NCBI RefSeq assembly: GCF_000346505.1 | Contig: NZ_ANOH01000003.1 | Coordinates: 1 to 64,000, forward strand | DNA length: 64,000 nt | Direction of reading: 5' to 3' | Source of the DNA: Aporhodopirellula sallentina SM41 | GTDB lineage: Bacteria > Planctomycetota > Planctomycetia > Pirellulales > Pirellulaceae | Position numbers and translations under genes: made by a program | The notes under the pieces: model-generated | Databases searched by the model: none | The model's input: only the letters and a program-made list of their open reading frames with translations | Told to the model about the DNA's origin: nothing | Part shown: piece after piece, positions 7,019 to 61,473 of the stretch | Layout of the letters: the number at the start of each line of letters is the position of its first letter | Numbering within the stretch: position 1 is the stretch's first letter

Positions 7019-10000
7019 TCAAAAGAGAGGTGGCGAACCGGTGGGCAGGGAGGTTTTCGGTTGTTTGCGTGACTCTTTGACACGCGAAACCCAGAGCTTG
7101 CCGATGGATTGGACGTCTCTCATTTGTTGAATCTCTTTGCCTTCAACATTCGATTTCATGTCTTCGTGGAGTTGATTGAACCAATCAGAATCGTCGCAAC
7201 TTTTTTCTAGATCGGCAGCGAGTTGGTTATGTGCAGGTGCAGCGATGTATCGCAGGCATGACTTTAACGTGTGCGCAGCGGTCTTAAACGTCTTGGCGTT
7301 TCCGTCTTTCGCGGATCGATCGAGTCTTCGGATAAGGTCGGGAACTTCCATGGTGATCGCATCGCAGACCGACTCGATTGTTGACTCATCGCCGCCACAA
7401 TGTTTTGACAGACGTTTCCGCCATTCGTCTTTCGGTTCGTCGTCGATCTCGTTTGGGGCAGGTTCCGGCATGGGGGACTCGATCTTTGCGGGGACATCGA
7501 TGGAGGTGGGAGCAGGTTGAGGAACTTGTGATGTTGCTTCAGATGACGGTGGTTCTGACGTGTGGACAGCTTCGCTTTGGATAGTGGTGCCATCGTGAGA
7601 CGCGATAGTTTGGGCTTGGACCACGCGTTCGATTTCGAGCAGAAGTGGTTTTAAATGGATCGGTTTGGTGATGTATCCGATCATGCCCGCATCTCGACAC
7701 ATTTTGCGATGTTGGTCCGTGACATGGGCCGTTAACGCGATGACGGGTGGAGCGGGGCATCCGATGTGTTGAGCGAGTTCGATGATTTGGGAGGTTACCT
7801 CGGTGCCGTCCATTCCTGGCATTTGAAGGTCCATAAGAACGCAATCAAATCGTTCGCGTTTAAAGTGTGCGATTGCCGTTTTTCCACCATCGGCGGTCGT
7901 CACAAAGTGTCCAGCAGAAACGAGTTGGTCGTGGATGACGAGTCGGTTGGTGGGACTGTCGTCAACAACGAGTAGGTGATAGCGTCTTGCAGTATTATCC
8001 GCTTTTTGGCTCGATCCGTCCGAGTTGGAATCGGACGGCGATTGGGTCAGTGTGGTATCCGACGCGACGGAAGACGAAGGGCTCGTTGTGAGTGAACCGA
8101 TCGTGTTGGCGCGTGCGGTTTGACGCAGCGGTTTTCCTGCGAGCCAGCGACGAAGTTCGTCAGGGTGCACGGGTTCGATGATGATTGTGTCTTCTTTCTT
8201 CGCACGGCGTGGAGTCGATTCACCGGTCCGAGTTAACCAGAGAACACGATCATTGGTTTTTCGAGCCCGAACTCGCCACGCGGCATCAGCGGTCTGGTTT
8301 GTCAGGACCCATGCGATTGGTTGGATGGTGTGATCTGTATCGCGTGATTTCGACGACGCTTGTTTAGAGAAGGTTCCAATTTGATCGGGGTGAAACACTT
8401 TCCATCCATCGTGAAGAAGCGTTTCTTTGATCGCGTTTTCGATCGTCTCATTGTTGACCGAAACGACCACGGATTGTTTGGGTTCGTTGTCTTCCTGTTG
8501 AGATCGAGAAGGGAGTTCAAGAACGTTGCCGATTCGTTTGGGGATCCATCGTTTGGCCGGGAGGGTCTCTTCAGCGAGTTTGAGTCGCAGGCGCACATGG
8601 AAACTGCTACCCACACCGACTTCGCTTTCTAATTCGATTCCGCCTCCCATTCGTTCGGCGAGGCCTCGTGCGATAGCAAGTCCGAGACCTGTGCCTCCGA
8701 ACTGCTTGTTGGTGCCACGATCGGCCTGCTCGAAGGCATCGAAGATTCTTGCTTGGTTTTCAGGGGCGATCCCGATGCCCGTGTCCGTGATGGAAATTTT
8801 GAACAACCGAGAGTTTTCGTTGGTGACGTGTTCGCCTTTGGCTCGATCGGGAATCGCCAGGAACCGGTCGCGGTGCTCATTTTGTCTGCGTTGTGTCATT
8901 GAACCAGTTTCATCTTCGGCCATCGCGAGACGCAGACACACCAATCCGTTCGGGGTGAATTTAATCGCGTTGCCAACCAAGTTGACAATGATTTGGCGAA
9001 GGCGTTTCGGGTCGGCGACCACACGCCGCGGGACCGCCGGATCGATGGAGAGACAGAGACGTACCGGCTTGTCAGCGACACGAATCGCTAGACAGCCGAA
9101 TGCATCACCGATGGTCTCATGGAGATCAATGGGCGTCGGGTCGATGGCGACCCGCCCGGCTTCGATAGCGGAGAAATCGAGAATGTCTTCAATAGCGTCA
9201 TGAAGCAGTTCGGTGTTCTGAGCAATAAGATTGACATATCTCCGTGCCAGCGCAGGAAGCGTTTGAGCGGCGAGAAGTTCTGTCAGTCCGCGGATGCCAC
9301 CGAGTGGAGTTCTCAACTCGTGCGAGATCCCGGCCATGAATTGTGTCTTGGTGCGGTTCGCTTGCTCGGCCACTGCCTTGGCTTCCCGCATCGCTTCAAA
9401 CGCTTGTTGCTGCAGTGTAATGTCGCGAATGATGACCGCTCGTCCGTCTCGATCACCCAGCGGAATCGGGTGAATCGAAACTTCGCTATCGAACGCAACG
9501 CCGTTGCCTCGTCGCAGTCGCAGTTCATGTCGTTGGGTGAACGGGAGCGTTTTCCATGTCAGTTTATCTTCATCGAGAACGGTCGATGTGGTCGTGGTTT
9601 GCTCGGTGATCGCAACGGGCATGATAAGGTCTTCGAGCGGACGCCCAACTAACCTGCCGCCTCCCGCCTGCAACATGGTGACCGCAGCTGGGTTGGCTTC
9701 CATGATGACTCCGCGATCGTCGACGAGCAGGACGGCGTCGCCCGCAGCATCAAACAGTGCTCGCTTGCGGGTTTCGCTGTTTTGCAATTCCATCGCACCA
9801 CGATGCTTTTCCGTCACATCCCAGAAGATCGCTTGGATGCCGATGCATTTGCCGTGTTGATCGTATTCAGGTGCTTTAAAGACCTGCACGAAACCGGTGC
9901 GTCCGTCGACTCCCGGATGTTCTTCGACCTTATCCACGTGCAGACCCGTCGTCATGACGTTGAGGTCGTCGGCACGGTAGCGAGCTGCGAGAGCCGGCGC

Positions 10001-10705
10001 GTAGAGATCCGCGTCGGTACTGCCGATGACGTCGATCGGTTGCAGTCCAAGCTCCTTGCAGAACGGATCATTGGCATAGGTGAATACGCCTTCTGAGTTC
10101 TTGCGTGCGACTTGCAAATGCATCCGATCCATGATGGACTGAAACGTCGTCTCGCTTTGGTCGAGTCGATGTTGCGTCGCTTGTCGTCGGGCGACCTCAT
10201 CGCGAAGGGCATGGTTGACGCGTGCTACTTCTTGCGACCGACGGCGAACACCTTGTTGCAGGTATTGTTGGTGCTTCAGACGTAGCCGCAATCTGCTGCG
10301 AAGGTAGACGTGGAAATAGCCTGCGGCGACTAACGCCAACAACGTCCACAGACGCACCGGATCAAAGTAGGGCGACACAATGGTGTGATCGACTCGGCTG
10401 ATCGAGTCCTCACCCCAAAAGTGTTGAAGCCACGACGTGTCGATCCCGAACGCATGCAGCAACGGACCATAGAACGCGTGCCATACTCCGGCAAGGACAA
10501 CCGCGGTGGCTTGTAAGGCAGTGATCCGAGTAATGACGCGTCGATGTAGAAAACGCCAAATAAGCGGCAACAGAAGTAGTTGGAGAACGCAAAGCCCCCA
10601 ATAAGGTGGTGCGAGGATGTCCGCCGCCATCAGCACTACAATGGAAAGCATCCACCACAACGGGCGTCGCTTCTGTAACGTCAGTGTTTCAGGAAAGCTC
10701 TTCAT
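7019..10705 (-). CDS. Hybrid sensor histidine kinase with PAS, HATPase, receiver and HPt domains
   Basis: A 1228-residue membrane-anchored phosphorelay protein. From the N-terminus: hydrophobic segments in about the first 140 residues; two PAS domains (near 188-290 and 315-430); a HisKA box with phospho-acceptor His in SHELRTPLGG near 458; a HATPase with DTGIGI and GGTGLGLAI (about 570-695); a receiver-like region near 745-865 that I read as degenerate; a full receiver with VVDDSPTN and phospho-site Asp in CVLMDLQMPG (about 910-1030); and an HPt domain with AHTLKSCLR near 1148. All modules of a phosphorelay are thus in one chain. I chose ATG 10705; an in-frame GTG at 10786 would add 27 residues without a visible ribosome site. 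No separate response regulator lies beside it, so the output is unknown. Confidence 0.93.
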   Translation of the reverse strand: MKSFPETLTLQKRRPLWWMLSIVVLMAADILAPPYWGLCVLQLLLLPLIWRFLHRRVITRITALQATAVVLAGVWHAFYGPLLHAFGIDTSWLQHFWGEDSISRVDHTIVSPYFDPVRLWTLLALVAAGYFHVYLRSRLRLRLKHQQYLQQGVRRRSQEVARVNHALRDEVARRQATQHRLDQSETTFQSIMDRMHLQVARKNSEGVFTYANDPFCKELGLQPIDVIGSTDADLYAPALAARYRADDLNVMTTGLHVDKVEEHPGVDGRTGFVQVFKAPEYDQHGKCIGIQAIFWDVTEKHRGAMELQNSETRKRALFDAAGDAVLLVDDRGVIMEANPAAVTMLQAGGGRLVGRPLEDLIMPVAITEQTTTTSTVLDEDKLTWKTLPFTQRHELRLRRGNGVAFDSEVSIHPIPLGDRDGRAVIIRDITLQQQAFEAMREAKAVAEQANRTKTQFMAGISHELRTPLGGIRGLTELLAAQTLPALARRYVNLIAQNTELLHDAIEDILDFSAIEAGRVAIDPTPIDLHETIGDAFGCLAIRVADKPVRLCLSIDPAVPRRVVADPKRLRQIIVNLVGNAIKFTPNGLVCLRLAMAEDETGSMTQRRQNEHRDRFLAIPDRAKGEHVTNENSRLFKISITDTGIGIAPENQARIFDAFEQADRGTNKQFGGTGLGLAIARGLAERMGGGIELESEVGVGSSFHVRLRLKLAEETLPAKRWIPKRIGNVLELPSRSQQEDNEPKQSVVVSVNNETIENAIKETLLHDGWKVFHPDQIGTFSKQASSKSRDTDHTIQPIAWVLTNQTADAAWRVRARKTNDRVLWLTRTGESTPRRAKKEDTIIIEPVHPDELRRWLAGKPLRQTARANTIGSLTTSPSSSVASDTTLTQSPSDSNSDGSSQKADNTARRYHLLVVDDSPTNRLVIHDQLVSAGHFVTTADGGKTAIAHFKRERFDCVLMDLQMPGMDGTEVTSQIIELAQHIGCPAPPVIALTAHVTDQHRKMCRDAGMIGYITKPIHLKPLLLEIERVVQAQTIASHDGTTIQSEAVHTSEPPSSEATSQVPQPAPTSIDVPAKIESPMPEPAPNEIDDEPKDEWRKRLSKHCGGDESTIESVCDAITMEVPDLIRRLDRSAKDGNAKTFKTAAHTLKSCLRYIAAPAHNQLAADLEKSCDDSDWFNQLHEDMKSNVEGKEIQQMRDVQSIGKLWVSRVKESRKQPKTSLPTGSPPLF

Positions 10706-10845
10706 GGGATCATTGGAATCAGGCCAAAACCGATCCTTTTCAGATTTACTGCTGGGGTGGAATCCGTTCAGTTTAACAGACCGCACGTCGGTGCAAGATT
10801 TGTATTCCGGTTCACTTGTCTCGTAAGAGGGTGATTTCCATTTCT

Positions 10846-49679: not shown

Positions 49680-50582
49680 GTGCTTTCTCTCTCTGATTCC
49701 GGTCGTCAAACCGTCAACGACCTCGCCGCTCGATACGGCGTCACTCCGGACGGTGTCACCCATATGCTTATCGCCGTGCATAACGGCAACGGCACCATGG
49801 CCCAATTCAATCACCCTGATTTCGGCGGGTCCGGCCAATGGATGCAGGGTGGAATGACTATGGTCAGTGATCTGTTCAATTACCAATTGAAAGATTTGGT
49901 GAATAACCTCTGCAGCGAACTGGCTGCGGTTCTGGCCAATAACCAGACCGGCACGTTCTCCGGTTCGTTCCAATCACAGAGCCAAAACGGCGTGGACTCG
50001 CAAGCGCAAGCCAACGGCCAATTTGGCGGCCAAAACAGTCTCTTCGTTCCTGATCCCTCATCGCAGTGGTGGCCGAAGCATCTAGGCACTCCCACGGCGA
50101 CCGGCAATCAGAACCAAACCAAGTACGCTTACTTTGCCAATTCCAATCGCTTGGCAGTGACGACAGGCGGACCTGCTTGGGTCTACGACACCCTCGACCA
50201 TCAAATCGGAGGCTTCGGGCAACAACAAGGCGGCGGAGCTTCGATCACGTTCACCAGCCAATACGGCACTGTCGATCTCGGCTCATTGCCTGTCGTTTGG
50301 CGAGACGGTGCGCCGGTAACGCCCGTCAAGGACAACCCACCACAGGCTGTTGCCAACGACTCGGTGCCAAACGATTCATGGAACCAACCGAGCAGTATCA
50401 CGCCGTCGGACAGCGGCACGCCCGATGTGGGTGTGTCACATGGGGGTATGTCGGGCGATCCGAGCGACGCCGTCGGCCAACTCGAACGGTTGGGTCAGCT
50501 CAAAGAGAAAGGGTTGTTGACCGACCAGGAATTCAGCGACGCCAAGCGAGCGTTGCTCAACCAGATCGGCTCCGGCGTTTAG
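49680..50582 (+). CDS. SHOCT-domain protein
   Basis: A 300-residue protein starting at GTG 49680. The N-terminal part (DSGRQTVNDLAARYGVTPDG) reads like a helix-turn-helix or helical domain. The middle is Gln/Gly/Ser/Asn-rich and of low complexity. The last ~30 residues (LERLGQLKEKGLLTDQEF) form a SHOCT motif, a short C-terminal oligomerisation helix pair common in bacterial proteins. Overall function is unknown. It converges on the large LPS-transport-like gene with a 20-base gap. Confidence 0.78.
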   Translation: MLSLSDSGRQTVNDLAARYGVTPDGVTHMLIAVHNGNGTMAQFNHPDFGGSGQWMQGGMTMVSDLFNYQLKDLVNNLCSELAAVLANNQTGTFSGSFQSQSQNGVDSQAQANGQFGGQNSLFVPDPSSQWWPKHLGTPTATGNQNQTKYAYFANSNRLAVTTGGPAWVYDTLDHQIGGFGQQQGGGASITFTSQYGTVDLGSLPVVWRDGAPVTPVKDNPPQAVANDSVPNDSWNQPSSITPSDSGTPDVGVSHGGMSGDPSDAVGQLERLGQLKEKGLLTDQEFSDAKRALLNQIGSGV

Positions 50583-50602: not shown

Positions 50603-53600
50603 CTACTTGTTTTTCGGGAAGTCGCTCGGTCGCAATCCCGTGCTCAGACTCTCAACCTGTGATGAAACAAGTTCAAAAGGTTTCAGTCGCAACGTCATGC
50701 TGATGATGGCAAGGTTCACGACTGGTTTACCGGATGGGTCGGTTTGTTGAAATCTCGCCGACCGGCCGGGAATGCCTTCAATCGTGACGAGGTCTTTCGC
50801 GACAGCGTATCCGCATCGATCCGCGGTCGCTTCGGAGAGCCCTCGGTCGGTGCGACTGCGGAAGACGATGCCGCCGGAGGCCTCGAGTTCGAACGCTGGG
50901 CTCGAGCCACCGGTTTTCGCGCTGAAGCGAGACTGCTGCGCCGATTCGGCCGGGTCGATGGACAATCTGATTTGATCACAGTCCAACGTGAGTTCGTCCT
51001 GTGACAACAGATTCATGTCAGCAGCGTTGAAGCGGGTGTGGAAATCCTCGACGATCTTCCGCCCGATCCGAACGCCTCGTTGGAATGTAAGCGATCGGCC
51101 GACGAGGTCGCCTTTCATGCCGTCTTGATACAGCAGGTGCACGCCGGTGATGTATGTTTCTCCGGGAGGTTTGTTGCCCTGACCGCCAGGGAACGCACCG
51201 CGTTGATCCTCGATCATGCCTTCGACGTATACCGATGCCTCTTGGCTGCGGTCGTTGTTCGCGCGGTCCCGTGCGGCTTGCTTGGAATCGTCGCCATCTT
51301 TCTTGGCGGTCGTCCGAATCCAACCTCGGTACGATCCAGGACCTGGTGCAAAAACTTGTCCGGCGATGGGTGATGGCGTTTGGCGAGTCGAGCCCAACGC
51401 GTAGGTCACTGGTGTCACCGATGGCTGGTTTGCCGGTTCGACGCCAGGGATCCACGTCAATTCGGATACGAGCATTTCATGACGTGACGTGCGACTACCG
51501 TCGGCCGCAAACTGGTTCACGTGGACAGCCACCGGTTGTTGCGTGGTTTGTTTGAGTGAGATCTGTGCCAACCGCGTCGCTTTGAACGTTGCAGGTGTTC
51601 GCAGGTCGACTGGGGTTTCGAGTGTGAACGACAACTCGTCGCCTTGCATCGTCACGTCGCTGGGTTCGCGTCCTTGGACAATCCCGGCTTCGAGCAGGAC
51701 GCCGCCGCTCAGTTTGGCGATGTGCCCATCAAACGTCATCGAACCGCCGAAACGTCCTTGAGGATTTTGGGTCCACCGCATCGGTTCGGACGATGAGTTT
51801 CCTGCGCCGGAGCCGCCGAGTCCGTTTCGTCCGAGCGGCGGAAGGAACGCGGTCGGAACAACAAACTCACCTGCCGACGGGATCCAAATGTAGTTGTCAT
51901 CGGGGCGGACTTGGATTTCAGGTCCGATGAAATAACCATCACCGAGTTCGAGACGGGCTGGCACAGTCGATTGGCTGCCCAACTGCAAAACGTCACCTCC
52001 ACCCTGGCTGTCGCGTAGCCGTAGGTGATCGCCGGTCATGACGGCGAGCATTGTTTGCGTTGGGCCGGCTCCGCCATTGCTCGCCAAGGAGAAAGCGTTG
52101 CCGCCCGTGTTATTGGAAACAGCCTTCTTGCGTAGCGACAAGGAGTGCGTCACCTCGACATTCCCGATCACACTCAGGTCCGTCGCCGCGAGTTCGCCAT
52201 CGCCAAAGGTCAGTTTCGCGGTGACCTGATCCCCACGAATCGTGGCCGGAGGTTGTGCGGGCTTTGCGTCGGTGGCACCGCCCATGCCCGGTTGTGACGA
52301 CAGTTGGGTGTCCCTTTTTGGTTGACTCACCCATTGGCGTAAACCTGTTGCCTCACTTTGGCCATTTTGGGTGGATCCGAGTGAGTCTATTTGTTCGAAG
52401 AACAGATTCATCTGCGGCGTGCTCGCCTGCAACGTGGTCGAGTTCACACGCACATTGCCAATTGCCGAGAATCGGTCCGGGAACCAACGATGATCGAGTG
52501 ATTCGTCGCTCGACCGTGCGGGGCCCTCGGAGGCGACCGGTTTCAACACGCCCTCGATGCGGTCCGTTTGAAAGGTTCCGCCATCGGCGAGTCGCGAACG
52601 AATGTCTCCGTCGCACCAGACTCCAAACCGAACATCCATTGCGTCGGGTGTCGCAACCTCCAATGGGGACACCCGCAAACTGTCACGCCACGAGAATGAT
52701 TTGATCGCGGACTCCACCGATCGATAGTCGAGTCGACCGTTCCCGTCCACTTCCACGGTGCCGAGTTGTTTGGGGTGTTTCGGGTCGAACCGATAGACAA
52801 TTCGCGACAACGTCGCATGCATGTCGCCTCGACTCAGTTGCACGAACTGAGTCAGTCGTGGGTCGGCGTTTGCAACCGTGGGCATGCCGACAGGCAACGG
52901 CCCGGCGATCAGCCATCCTTCCAAGGGGTCAAACATCACTTGACCGGCCGTCAGGTCGAGCTGTTGCGACCGCACGGATAGTTGTACCGGTCGGCCGGTC
53001 GCTTCGATGCGGTCAATCCAGTCCACCGCCGAGGCGCGTTCACGTTCCGAGTTCAGCGGATCCCGCAGTGTCAGACGCAACGAGTCACAGGCGAAATGAT
53101 CCAGGGCGGATATGTCTGCGGTGTGTGTGGGGCGAACGCCGCTCGAGGCATGATGGACCAAGCGAACGTTGCGATCGAGCAGCAGTTGATCCATTGCGAA
53201 GTCATACTCAATCCGTCCGTCACACTGCACCTCAATCAGACCGCGATCCTCTTGGGGTGTGGTGGATTGTGGATCCGCAGGCTCTCCAAGGGGGAGGGTC
53301 AGTTCGCGAAGATAAATCAGTTCCATGCGGTCGAGCGATCTGGCGAGGTTCGAGCTCGACGAGGCCGATCCGGTGGACGCCGCTAGATGCAACGTCAAGT
53401 CACGGCCAACCATGACCGCGCGACCCACATGCATTTCAATCGCTTCGGTGGTCCAAATTTTGCGGCGATCAATGCCCACGTTCGCCGTGCGAATGTCGAG
53501 TACCTGATCCTCACTGACACCGCCGGCGTTCGGATGAACCCGGTATGCGGACTCGGGAGGCGCCGTGTTCGCATCGGCGGATTCATTTGCGAAGTGATTC

Positions 53601-54073
53601 GGGGCGACGCGCTGGATGTGCACTTTACCTAGCAGTTGGCCCCGTTGGATCGTGGGTGCCACACCGCTCATCACGTCGAGCGCCGCATCGAATTCGATCA
53701 CCGCGCCTTCAGCCGCTTCGATGAGGATCGGCTCACGGGAGTCGTCCGCTGACAAGCCGCGACCGATGATCATCGTGATCGGCCACAGTCGCCATTTCTT
53801 ACCGCCGTCGCGTTCGTCTTTGTTTTGCTCCCAGTTTTGAAACAGGAGCATGCCGTCTTGGGTCTTGAGGCGGATCGCTCTACCACGCTGCCACGCATCT
53901 TCCGGGTACAAATCGACCAGCGAAGCGTCGTTGTCGCTCAGGACGCGTACCGCGATCGGCGCGTGTTCAATCTCGGGCGGCGTGAGCCACTTGGCCGCGG
54001 TCACTTGGTAACCGCCCATCGCGACGAGTATCAAACTCAATCCGACGAAGTAATCGCGAACCGAACCCGCCAT
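50603..54073 (-). CDS. Very large LptC/LptA-like envelope protein in the kds operon
   Basis: A 1156-residue protein. One N-terminal membrane helix (YFVGLSLILVAMGGYQVTA near 8-26) anchors a long beta-rich periplasmic chain without catalytic motifs. Segments such as GDQVTAKLTFGDGELAATDL and SVIGNVEVTHSL recall the OstA/LptA and LptC folds, where short beta strands carry LPS. Its ATG overlaps the kdsC stop (TAATG), matching the kdsD-kdsC-lptC order of proteobacteria. LptC and LptA are each about 190 residues, so this one is five- to six-fold longer. The OstA-like reading rests on pattern and context, not a certain alignment. It ends 20 bases from the SHOCT gene. Confidence 0.72.
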   Translation of the reverse strand: MAGSVRDYFVGLSLILVAMGGYQVTAAKWLTPPEIEHAPIAVRVLSDNDASLVDLYPEDAWQRGRAIRLKTQDGMLLFQNWEQNKDERDGGKKWRLWPITMIIGRGLSADDSREPILIEAAEGAVIEFDAALDVMSGVAPTIQRGQLLGKVHIQRVAPNHFANESADANTAPPESAYRVHPNAGGVSEDQVLDIRTANVGIDRRKIWTTEAIEMHVGRAVMVGRDLTLHLAASTGSASSSSNLARSLDRMELIYLRELTLPLGEPADPQSTTPQEDRGLIEVQCDGRIEYDFAMDQLLLDRNVRLVHHASSGVRPTHTADISALDHFACDSLRLTLRDPLNSERERASAVDWIDRIEATGRPVQLSVRSQQLDLTAGQVMFDPLEGWLIAGPLPVGMPTVANADPRLTQFVQLSRGDMHATLSRIVYRFDPKHPKQLGTVEVDGNGRLDYRSVESAIKSFSWRDSLRVSPLEVATPDAMDVRFGVWCDGDIRSRLADGGTFQTDRIEGVLKPVASEGPARSSDESLDHRWFPDRFSAIGNVRVNSTTLQASTPQMNLFFEQIDSLGSTQNGQSEATGLRQWVSQPKRDTQLSSQPGMGGATDAKPAQPPATIRGDQVTAKLTFGDGELAATDLSVIGNVEVTHSLSLRKKAVSNNTGGNAFSLASNGGAGPTQTMLAVMTGDHLRLRDSQGGGDVLQLGSQSTVPARLELGDGYFIGPEIQVRPDDNYIWIPSAGEFVVPTAFLPPLGRNGLGGSGAGNSSSEPMRWTQNPQGRFGGSMTFDGHIAKLSGGVLLEAGIVQGREPSDVTMQGDELSFTLETPVDLRTPATFKATRLAQISLKQTTQQPVAVHVNQFAADGSRTSRHEMLVSELTWIPGVEPANQPSVTPVTYALGSTRQTPSPIAGQVFAPGPGSYRGWIRTTAKKDGDDSKQAARDRANNDRSQEASVYVEGMIEDQRGAFPGGQGNKPPGETYITGVHLLYQDGMKGDLVGRSLTFQRGVRIGRKIVEDFHTRFNAADMNLLSQDELTLDCDQIRLSIDPAESAQQSRFSAKTGGSSPAFELEASGGIVFRSRTDRGLSEATADRCGYAVAKDLVTIEGIPGRSARFQQTDPSGKPVVNLAIISMTLRLKPFELVSSQVESLSTGLRPSDFPKNK

Positions 54074-54636
54074 TAATCCTCTTTCGTGAGATGTTCGTTC
54101 CAACGGTCGCCGCCGCGCAGCAGTCGCTCAACGACTTCACGAACGACTCCCTGTCCGCCGTGGGCACGCGTTGTCCAGTGAGCAAACTCGCGCGCGTCGG
54201 TTGCCGCATCGTCAGGGACGGCGGCGAGTGCGACACGGCGCATCACGCAAAGATCCGGTAAGTCATCGCCGACGTAGCATACCTGTTCGGGAGTCACTCC
54301 CATGGCCGCCATCATCGTTTGCGCGGCCGCCCACTTATCGCCGACGCCTTGGCTGAGATGCTCGATGCCGAGTTCTTTTGCTCGGTGCGCGACCAACGGA
54401 CTTTTCCGTGCCGTGATGATCCCGAAGTGGAAACCCGACCGCATCCACAGTTTGATTCCCAATCCATCGCGCACGCTGAACGATTTGGTCTCACGGCACG
54501 ATTGGTCGGGTTCGACGGTGTAGGTGATCCGACCATCGGTCAGTACCCCGTCGACATCACTCAAGATGCACTTGATTTCAGTGGCGATTTCGCCGTCGCT
54601 ACGCAAACGACTTTCGATAGGAACATGCGAAGTCAC
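54073..54636 (-). CDS. kdsC: 3-deoxy-manno-octulosonate-8-phosphate phosphatase KdsC
   Basis: A 187-residue HAD-family phosphatase that removes phosphate from Kdo-8-phosphate, making the Kdo used in lipid A-core LPS. The nucleophile motif SDVDGVLTDG near residue 27 and GDDLPDLCVM near 134 are the HAD I and IV signatures of KdsC. ITARKS near 75 is motif II. It overlaps kdsD by 4 bases and the next gene by 1 base, so all three are coupled. kdsA and kdsB are not in the window. Confidence 0.94.
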   Translation of the reverse strand: MTSHVPIESRLRSDGEIATEIKCILSDVDGVLTDGRITYTVEPDQSCRETKSFSVRDGLGIKLWMRSGFHFGIITARKSPLVAHRAKELGIEHLSQGVGDKWAAAQTMMAAMGVTPEQVCYVGDDLPDLCVMRRVALAAVPDDAATDAREFAHWTTRAHGGQGVVREVVERLLRGGDRWNEHLTKED

Positions 54637-55766
54637 GGTGTGTGTTTTCCCGTTGTTGGTTGAGCCATGGGGAGGACCGTCGCCGCGGTTTCAGGGGCCG
54701 CGATGTCACCGGCTGCAATAAGATCGGTGATATCGATCATCCCAACCGGCCGGCCGCAGTCATCGATGACCGGCAGTTCACTGATATGGCGTTGCGATAG
54801 GATGGCGACTGCGGATCCGAGAGAACTGCCACTCGTGGAGCAAATCGGGGTCCGAGTCATCACCTCTTCGATCGGTCGATCGAGACTGTTTTCTTGGCGG
54901 TGTTGAAGAAGCTTCACAAGGTCACTGTCGGTGAAGATCCCCGTTAGTTTGTTCTCGGAATCGACTAGCATGACCGCGCCGCTGCGTCGTTCCGGCGAAC
55001 TCGTTGCGATGGCGTCTCGCACCGGCAGTGTTTCGCTAGCGATACGGCATTCATGCAACCCACGCATGACGTCGTCGACGCTCGAGAGTTTTCGTCCGAG
55101 CGCACCACCGGGATGGAAACGTGCGAAATCTTGAGGTCCAAAACCACGAATCTGCGACGCGAGCATGGCGATCGCGTCACCGATCGCGAGCATGACCGAC
55201 GTGCTCGTCGTCGGTGCCAACCCGTTCGGGCAGGCTTCCCGGTGACGGCCCATGGGGACGACTAGGTCCGACAGGTTCGCCAGTGGGTTGGCGCTATCGG
55301 CGGTGATGGCGATCAAGCAATCCGCTTGTGTTTTAATAAACTCGCAAGCCCGGACGACTTCTTCGCTGCGTCCGGAATTGGAGAACGCGATCACGATGTC
55401 ATTCGCCTGCACGCGGCCGAGGTCACCGTGAATCGCTTCGCTCGGGTGCAGGAAATGCGACGGCGAACCGGTGCTCGCGAGTGTCGCGACGATTTTCTGT
55501 GCGATCCATCCCGCTTTACCCACACCGGTCAGGACAACGGAGCCTGTGCATTGGGCAATACGAGTTCCGGCTTCCACCGCCGCAGTGGAGGCAAACGACG
55601 CCGCCTCGCGAATGGCGTCAGACTCCGCAAACATCGTGTCACGGATAATGCGAACGCATTCGACCTGCGATAAAGATTCGGCGACAGAACGCGAGTCGAG
55701 CGTGCGTTGAGAGGCAAAATTGCCGTCTCCACGCGACGAGGCGGGCTGGGCAGACACGGGCAGCAT
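54633..55766 (-). CDS. kdsD: Arabinose-5-phosphate isomerase KdsD
   Basis: A 377-residue isomerase making D-arabinose 5-phosphate from ribulose 5-phosphate for Kdo synthesis. The SIS domain (LTGVGKAGWIAQKI near 76, HPSEAIHGDLGRV near 103, IAFSNSGRSEEV near 124) is followed by two CBS domains in the C-terminal third (SSVDDVMRGLHECRI, then EVMTRTPICSTSGSSLG). This is the KdsD/GutQ layout. ATG 55766 has a ~40-residue N-terminal extension over E. coli KdsD. It heads the kdsD-kdsC unit, about 100 bases downstream of the sulfatase. Confidence 0.94.
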   Translation of the reverse strand: MLPVSAQPASSRGDGNFASQRTLDSRSVAESLSQVECVRIIRDTMFAESDAIREAASFASTAAVEAGTRIAQCTGSVVLTGVGKAGWIAQKIVATLASTGSPSHFLHPSEAIHGDLGRVQANDIVIAFSNSGRSEEVVRACEFIKTQADCLIAITADSANPLANLSDLVVPMGRHREACPNGLAPTTSTSVMLAIGDAIAMLASQIRGFGPQDFARFHPGGALGRKLSSVDDVMRGLHECRIASETLPVRDAIATSSPERRSGAVMLVDSENKLTGIFTDSDLVKLLQHRQENSLDRPIEEVMTRTPICSTSGSSLGSAVAILSQRHISELPVIDDCGRPVGMIDITDLIAAGDIAAPETAATVLPMAQPTTGKHTP

Positions 55767-60132: not shown

Positions 60133-61473
60133 ATGTTAGTACGATTCCATTGCACGCTGTTGGCGGTCGCCACGCTATTGGGAGGAACGAGCCTTCATGC
60201 TCAGGGCCGCACGGTCGCGCGTTTGTTTTGGCAAGACCATCAGAATGCCAAGATGATGTGGGGCGACCTGCAGAAGACGAGCGAAGGGTACGCACTCGCA
60301 GAACACGAAGTCGAGGGCTTTCCGGCTCTCGATGTTGATGATCAATCACTAGTTCAAATGCAAACCGATGAAGGTTTGATTGTTGTCGGCGTTCGCGATG
60401 AAGCGGGTGGTGAGATCGGCAGCGGTTGGGTGGCGATCGAATCCGGTGCCTTCCAGGAAACGCATGGCGACCACTACCACTGGCGTTTCACGTCCGCTCC
60501 GTCGATTCACACGACACGCGTCGATGCGTCCCAAGGGAATCCGGCACACGTCTATCGCTACGACAACGCGTTTGTGATGGCGAACGACCAGAAGAACGGA
60601 TTTACTATGTTGACGGCAAAATCGATTCGTGAGGCGGAGTCTCCCGAAGCGTCCGGCAGCTTTTTCGAGGGGGGCGGGAATCATATCACGTTGGCCGTGG
60701 CGGAGGGGAGAGTTGCCTACAGCACGTGGATCGATCGTGAAGGTGAAAACGCGGGACGTGTCGACGTGGTCGGGTTGGGCAACTGGGCCGGAAAGCGTTA
60801 CCACGTTCATTGCCCATCGGGCGGCCTGCACGGTGCGACCTACAATTCGGGCAAGGTCTTCTTAGCACCGGCCGACGGTATCTGCTGGGTTGAGGCGGAT
60901 CTCGACGTGAACCGGCATCCGGACTCGGTTGTCGTTCATCATTTACCGATCGGTACTGACGAGGAAGACAACCCGCTGCGCACCGGCGCGTTCCAGAATG
61001 TCGGTAGCTATGTGGTGTTCTCGAGCGGTAAAGGCGAGCAGTCTCGACTGTGTTTCGTCGATGCTTCGAAGAGCGAACCGACGATCGAGTCGTTGTCGCT
61101 GCAGATGGACGAGGGACAATCGATGCTCACTCCGATCGTCGGAAAAGGCATCGACGGCAGTCCGATTGCGTTGTGCTTTGCCGAGTCCAAGGATGCTCCT
61201 GAGAACGATCGACTCTATGTCGTCAATCTCGATCCTGATCGCAACGGCAGCTTTTCAGATGCGGTTGCGGGCGAGCCGATCGCGGTGGGACGCAGTCAAA
61301 TCGAAGGTCATTTTGGTCACCACGACGCAGTCTTCCTGCCACGTGGTCGTCAAATGGCGATTACGAATCCCGGTGACTCGAGCATTTGGGTGATTTCACT
61401 TCGCGACCAAAGCGTGGCCGGAAAATTCGACTGCACCGGAACACCCACGGCACTACTTTCGATTTCCGACTGA
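60133..61473 (+). CDS. AztD-like periplasmic beta-propeller (putative metallochaperone)
   Basis: A 446-residue secreted propeller. Signal peptide: FHCTLLAVATLLGGTSLHAQ, cleavage near 24-25. Features recalling zinc metallochaperone AztD are the His cluster ETHGDHYHWRF near 110, GNPAHVYRYDNAFVMANDQK near 135, and the Cys-containing strand CPSGGLHGATYNSG near 226 with a second Cys at GICWVE near 251. In AztD a similar CP-LHGE segment and a later Cys form a disulfide. No azt ABC transporter is nearby, so the zinc role is inference and other propeller functions are possible. ATG 60133 lies 17 bases after the lipoprotein stop. A possible terminator follows. Confidence 0.62.
   Translation: MLVRFHCTLLAVATLLGGTSLHAQGRTVARLFWQDHQNAKMMWGDLQKTSEGYALAEHEVEGFPALDVDDQSLVQMQTDEGLIVVGVRDEAGGEIGSGWVAIESGAFQETHGDHYHWRFTSAPSIHTTRVDASQGNPAHVYRYDNAFVMANDQKNGFTMLTAKSIREAESPEASGSFFEGGGNHITLAVAEGRVAYSTWIDREGENAGRVDVVGLGNWAGKRYHVHCPSGGLHGATYNSGKVFLAPADGICWVEADLDVNRHPDSVVVHHLPIGTDEEDNPLRTGAFQNVGSYVVFSSGKGEQSRLCFVDASKSEPTIESLSLQMDEGQSMLTPIVGKGIDGSPIALCFAESKDAPENDRLYVVNLDPDRNGSFSDAVAGEPIAVGRSQIEGHFGHHDAVFLPRGRQMAITNPGDSSIWVISLRDQSVAGKFDCTGTPTALLSISD

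Follow-up and report, generated by a model that had tools for sequence, protein, structure and literature searches.

The gene that follows kdsD and kdsC in Aporhodopirellula sallentina SM41 very probably codes for LptC together with three or more LptA-type β-jellyroll modules in one chain, here designated LptCA, which would work as a one-chain periplasmic bridge for lipopolysaccharide (LPS). The gene lies in a 64,000-nucleotide stretch (contig NZ_ANOH01000003.1, positions 1 to 64,000; hereafter the window). The open reading frame (ORF), the gene order, the family membership, the predicted fold, the other Lpt parts, and the lack of a separate LptA or LptC match were all obtained by computation.

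Organization of the kdsD-kdsC-lptCA cluster

All three genes are encoded on the minus strand. kdsD (54633-55766) encodes a 377-aa arabinose-5-phosphate isomerase of the KpsF/GutQ family (TIGR00393, over the cut-off), in which a Pfam scan found one SIS and two CBS domains, and kdsC (54073-54636) encodes a 187-aa Kdo-8-phosphate phosphatase (TIGR01670, over the cut-off); both identities agree with those given in the first-pass annotation. The putative LptC-LptA(n) fusion gene lptCA (50603-54073 including the stop codon) encodes a single chain of 1156 aa from an ATG start. A longer form in the ORF list begins with TTG at 54103 (1166 aa), and the ATG at 54073 agrees with the possible start positions in close relatives. 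The overlaps of 4 bases and 1 base that had been claimed for the cluster were read directly from the sequence: the GTG start of kdsC overlaps the TGA stop of kdsD by 4 bases (caccGTGActt), and the ATG of lptCA shares 1 base with the TAA stop of kdsC (gattaATGgcg). These GTGA and TAATG overlaps have the form expected for translationally coupled genes and may reflect such coupling.

The neighbor of lptCA is a convergent gene on the plus strand (49680-50582), the stop codons being 20 bases apart, and its 300-aa product has a C-terminal SHOCT-like motif (E = 3.4e-5, below the cut-off). Elsewhere, the window contains a gene for a 1255-aa hybrid histidine kinase that has a receiver and an Hpt domain besides several PAS domains (7022-10786, minus strand) and a 446-aa ORF with no Pfam match at E ≤ 0.001 (60133-61470, plus strand).

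The gene order was compared among planctomycete loci. In 36 of the 39 testable loci of the order, kdsC immediately preceded the long gene on the same strand; kdsD was within 1.5 kb, likewise in 36 of 39. The same position of kdsC was found at all 11 loci of the genus and at 12 of 13 loci from other planctomycete classes. In one family of the same class (L123-L137), the cluster lacked kdsC, and in all 15 loci it was kdsD that immediately preceded the long gene. The kdsD-kdsC-long gene order exceeds chance, as it is conserved across loci. In E. coli, the order is kdsD-kdsC-lptC-lptA-lptB, which agrees with the order given for proteobacteria in the first-pass annotation; together with the conserved position after kdsD-kdsC, it indicates that the long gene occupies the lptC-lptA slot. 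In contrast to the E. coli cluster, the cluster here lacks lptB: no such gene was detected by ATPase motifs near the long gene in 40 loci of the order, indicating that lptB is located elsewhere.

Distribution of the long protein

The nearest named relatives of the long protein were found in Rhodopirellula rubra (79% identity), Aporhodopirellula aestuarii (74%), Rhodopirellula solitaria (64%), and Neorhodopirellula pilleata (60%), which places the window in the Rhodopirellula group of Planctomycetes; relatives from the remaining families of the order shared only about 20% identity with it. A search with the single sequence detected the protein in 52 of 147 genomes of the order, and a profile constructed from 53 sequences of the order detected it in 144 of 147. 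This order profile matched in all 129 sampled genomes with a completeness of 90% or higher; with few exceptions, the match either covered the full length at once or was split into parts of a single gene. The family was present in all 13 genomes of the genus, and a phylum-wide draw gave a match in every listed genome of the class (21 genomes). Its members are approximately 950 to 1310 aa long in the order and approximately 635-665 aa in another family (f62) and related lineages; in most members of the order, a hydrophobic stretch at the start precedes a P-x-(I/L)-E-P-like motif.

Homology to LptC and LptA

The window protein alone matched no Pfam family at E ≤ 1 and gave no NCBIfam match; hence, its homology was examined through its family. 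When a set of 41 members from the class was scanned against Pfam, PF03968 (LptA/LptD_N) was matched by 26 of them, with a best E-value of 9.1e-10 and several matches over the curated cut-off. PF06835 (LptC) was matched weakly by 7 of the 41; the best E-value was 0.0035, and in at least three of them the score did not reach the curated cut-off. No other family recurred among the Pfam matches of these 41 members. The profile search with the LptA and LptC families proposed in the first-pass annotation was therefore negative for the protein itself and positive for its relatives. Among the matches listed with positions, LptC was always N-terminal to LptA in the same protein, with LptC at about 155-215 and LptA at about 270-400, 700-730, or 830-960. 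Furthermore, when a profile of 77 relatives was searched against 177,635 PDB sequences, LptA chains were the only matches at E ≤ 1 (best 4.3e-4).

A link to LptC was provided by ORFs of other planctomycete classes. The order profile matched fused ORFs in these classes, mostly at 1e-10 to 6e-26, and in the fused set, both PF06835 and PF03968 matched in 14 of the 14 scanned proteins (best 4.1e-20 and 2.3e-26, respectively). Alignment of the order profile with that of the fused set by hhalign gave 98.7% over 558 columns. Five sub-regions of the window family gave 83-96% against the fused set, whereas reversed or column-shuffled controls gave at most 0.6%. E. coli LptC did not match the order profile, so that the case for homology to LptC depends on the fused proteins of other classes and on the structural model. 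More generally, homology to both LptC and LptA was established by way of relatives and profiles; the window protein does not reveal it by itself. Taken together, these results indicate that the family of the long protein is clearly an LptC-LptA fusion.

Two of the fused ORFs from other classes, of 664 aa (L168:1957-3948) and 1112 aa (L179:4412-7747), resemble the window protein in having LptC at the N-terminus and LptA modules after it, and they are linked to it by profiles. The former and most other fused ORFs also share the kdsD-kdsC slot with the window protein. Unlike the window protein, the 664-aa protein is shorter and exceeds the Pfam cut-offs, with LptC at 53-200 followed by three LptD_N (PF03968) stretches. 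At this locus (L168:1957-5746) and similar loci with fusions of about 660 aa, the downstream neighbor is a protein of about 600-670 aa that appeared glycerophosphodiester phosphodiesterase-like by eye; in these lineages, the cluster may thus include a gene of membrane-lipid metabolism.

A search of the phylum with PF06835 gave matches in 59 genomes. Of these 59 matches, 52 fall within open frames that are 500 aa or longer, and for 22 the frame reaches 900 aa or more. PF03968 was also found in many of these ORFs, and most ORFs of the fused set lay directly after kdsC. Separate genes were observed in two genomes: one has a stand-alone 174-aa LptC right after kdsD-kdsC (G192, L173:5507-6031, minus strand), and the other has LptC and LptA matches in two separate, neighboring ORFs (246 and 175 aa; G200:C333:6091-6926), in a phylum whose other members almost all have the fused form. 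Given these unfused genes, the fusion may have originated inside the phylum, or some members may have lost it; they could represent the ancestral state or misassigned genomes. In Methylacidiphilum of the sister phylum Verrucomicrobia, LptA and LptC are listed as two loci, Mfum_1152 and Mfum_1153 (PMC10542722).

Anatomy and predicted fold of LptCA

Two AlphaFold models were obtained from different alignments of 53 and 77 sequences, with pLDDT of 77.8 and 80.1 and pTM of 0.60 and 0.65, respectively, and their secondary structures agreed. The AlphaFold helix and hydropathy placed a predicted membrane anchor at residues 2-30 (53984-54070), as in LptC. The most hydrophobic 19-residue stretch starts at residue 9 (mean 1.64), and every such stretch past residue 40 has a mean of at most 1.31; the long protein is thus predicted to have a single N-terminal transmembrane helix and a periplasmic remainder, like LptC. 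Past this helix, the model consists of 48% strand and 5% helix, so that the earlier description of a long, single-anchor, β-rich product holds for the 1156-aa chain.

The LptC-like region was assigned to residues ~50-235 (53369-53926) from PF06835 matches of relatives and hhalign. The matches of three relatives (L064, L122, and L123; E = 0.0038-0.033) lie at residues ~155-215, that of L064 mapping to residues 147-228 of the window protein, and hhalign to the fused proteins gave 95.7% for residues 186-310. LptA-like module 1 (residues ~280-433; 52775-53236) was placed by hhalign (95.8%), an LptA PDB chain, and the PF03968 match of a relative (L062, 3.6e-07) that maps to residues 325-433. It is followed by a middle β region (residues ~434-650; 52124-52774) with strands in the model and weak hhalign scores; residues 434-650 have no sequence match of their own. 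Here, strand pLDDT is mostly above 85 up to residue 561, and confidence is then low to residue ~609. Module 2 (residues ~740-880; 51434-51856) was recognized by an LptA PDB chain match and hhalign, which gave 95.0% to the fused set and 40.7% to E. coli LptA residues 42-75. The C-terminal module 3 (residues ~970-1145; 50639-51166) was supported by the PF03968 match of L064 (9.1e-10), which maps to residues 1027-1105, and by alignment of the C-terminal part with E. coli LptA residues 103-150 (31% identity over 48 aligned columns).

In total, about 60 strands of at least 3 residues were predicted in the long protein. Since LptA has 16 strands, the chain corresponds to approximately three to four jellyroll equivalents. 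The best Foldseek matches of the model included LptD, LptA, LptH, and LptC. For LptA, the predicted model gave a TM (target) of up to 0.76, a probability of 1.00, and an rmsd down to 2.6 over ~170 columns (2r1a), and for LptC a TM of 0.55. The whole-chain alignments with LptD had low TM and an rmsd near 40, indicating a shared module type only and saying little on overall shape. These results suggest that the long protein has the LptA β-jellyroll fold. Low-confidence loops, e.g. at residues 162-185, 589-598, 657-668, 885-900, and 927-967, break the modelled chain into separate modules and count against one continuous groove. A fold without jellyroll repeats, which would have refuted the first-pass reading, was not observed: both models show one anchor helix and about 60 strands, and their Foldseek matches include LptA, LptC, LptH, and LptD.

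Other components of the Lpt machine

The genome (8.19 Mb in 491 contigs, 99.99% complete) was searched for the other Lpt components, which the first-pass annotation had suggested looking for, and lptB (C439; 322.9 bits, cut-off 240), two lptF/G permeases (C283 and C456, both over the cut-off), and additionally lptE (C285; 45.8 bits, cut-off 23) were found. A 1252-aa LptD homologue (C217; L090:5681-9439, minus strand) was borderline, with 21.6 bits against the Pfam cut-off of 22.4, and reached 25.8 bits with neighboring pieces in frame. This homologue was present in 60 of 60 relatives, the LptD family was matched by 10 of 24 homologues, and its profile gave no match in the PDB. With some 750 residues preceding the barrel match, it is much longer than E. 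coli LptD (784 aa). LptD has been reported in all planctomycete genomes examined (PMC3422733).

No match to PF03968 or PF06835 was detected anywhere in this genome; thus, the separate normal lptC and lptA genes that would have spoken against a fusion were not found by these profiles, and a very divergent additional LptA-like gene could have been missed by the search. Judged by sequence, LptB, LptF, LptG, LptD, and LptE are present, with LptC and LptA only in the form of the long protein.

Comparison with known systems and proposed mechanism

Like E. coli LptC and LptA, LptCA has the slot after kdsD-kdsC, a predicted N-terminal anchor followed by β-jellyrolls, an LptA-type sequence signature, and the corresponding predicted fold. 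In E. coli, however, these are separate proteins (191 and 185 aa, in line with the ~190 residues stated in the first-pass annotation) that are joined non-covalently, LptA being able to self-assemble, whereas here there is one chain of 1156 aa. Standard LptA is a small soluble periplasmic protein with a cleaved signal peptide, from which the long protein differs in its size and its predicted LptC-like anchor. The long protein belongs to the LptC/LptA superfamily through its orthologues, yet its size, its single-chain make-up, and its failure to match either Pfam profile set it apart from the standard forms of both LptC and LptA. The N-terminal domain of LptD (PF03968) is also of the jellyroll family and was matched by Foldseek, but LptD is an outer-membrane barrel, and the long protein has a predicted inner-membrane anchor and no barrel family match.

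We infer the membrane placement of LptCA, its docking to LptB2FG and LptD, its LPS cargo, and the spanning of the periplasm by one chain. Like LptC, LptCA would be held in the inner membrane by its N-terminal helix, next to the LptB2FG ABC transporter. The LptC-like module would take up LPS and hand it along the fused LptA-like modules to LptD. The covalent fusion would stand in for both the E. coli LptC-LptA joint and LptA self-assembly, and the length of the bridge would then be set by the gene. The idea that a one-chain LPS bridge replaces several small subunits is supported by homology, predicted fold, and slot for two of them, LptC and LptA; the rest of the machine is retained, and LPS transport by a spanning chain is presumed. 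A distinct Lpt architecture, as first proposed, is supported by the single fused chain in the lptC-lptA slot. A broader statement, that in Planctomycetia the entire LPS bridge between LptB2FG and LptD in the periplasm is one covalent chain of gene-fixed length without an LptA oligomer, has in our estimation about an even chance of being correct.

The length of the LptD homologue bears on this statement, since the ~750 residues before its barrel domain might complete a bridge that the long protein does not span alone. In such a case, the long protein would be an LptC with an extended LptA-like tail, supplemented by this LptD region or by undetected small LptA-like subunits. The variation in family length noted above is compatible with this explanation, as one chain of only ~635-665 aa may not always reach, and the LptA profile can miss divergent members, the window protein itself being one. 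On the other hand, PF03968 has no match elsewhere in the genome, and module 3 is similar to the C-terminal half of E. coli LptA, which is the end meeting LptD. We therefore regard a partial bridge as possible but rather unlikely.

A long, β-rich protein with a single N-terminal anchor would also be expected of an AsmA/TamB/YhdP-type phospholipid bridge standing beside kdsDC by chance. By analogy, these proteins and the eukaryotic bridge-like lipid transfer proteins are likewise long single chains that may connect two membranes, and Foldseek indeed gave the eukaryotic bridge-like protein complex LPD-3 (9cap, probability 0.93). However, they differ in their expected fold family and cargo. AsmA, DUF490, and TamB were absent from the Pfam matches of the window protein and of the 41 relatives, and none of them was among the best 50 Foldseek rows, for which reasons an AsmA/TamB-like origin was rejected; LptA and LptC recurred in both Pfam and Foldseek, and the gene slot is that of lptC-lptA. 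This explanation is highly improbable. The lack of any Pfam match in the window protein alone and the identity of only ~20% across families of the order would also suit an unrelated β-rich surface or scaffold protein, whose resemblance to LptA would be a low-complexity β-sheet artefact. The near-zero scores of the reversed and shuffled profiles and the strong PF03968 match among relatives argue against it, as does occurrence in every good genome of the order, unlike typical surface proteins, and we consider it extremely improbable. The fused LptC-LptA chain accordingly remains the preferred reading.

Implications for the planctomycete envelope

In a survey of 16 genes, the planctomycete Lpt system was described as "largely reduced" (PMC8871954), and the biomarker study that argued for a planctomycete outer membrane used only LptD, BamA, and TonB (PMC3422733). 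The essential-gene paper on P. limnophila reported lpx genes as essential, its main text naming no Lpt gene (PMC10632474). A search of the open-access literature, with subscription papers and preprints outside its scope, gave no description of an LptC-LptA fusion. The long gene offers the missing LptC and LptA of planctomycetes as one protein at the expected place, and the fusion may explain why these bacteria seemed to be without part of the standard Lpt transport machine. The peptide thanatin is described as targeting the LptC-LptA joint in E. coli (PMC7237710), and the long protein would represent a natural, stabilised version of this joint. With LptA self-assembly in E. coli and a fused chain here, the length of a trans-envelope bridge becomes a testable question. 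If one covalent chain is indeed the whole bridge, the variation in its length within the phylum (~635 to 1310 aa) would follow the spacing of the unusual envelopes that these bacteria have.
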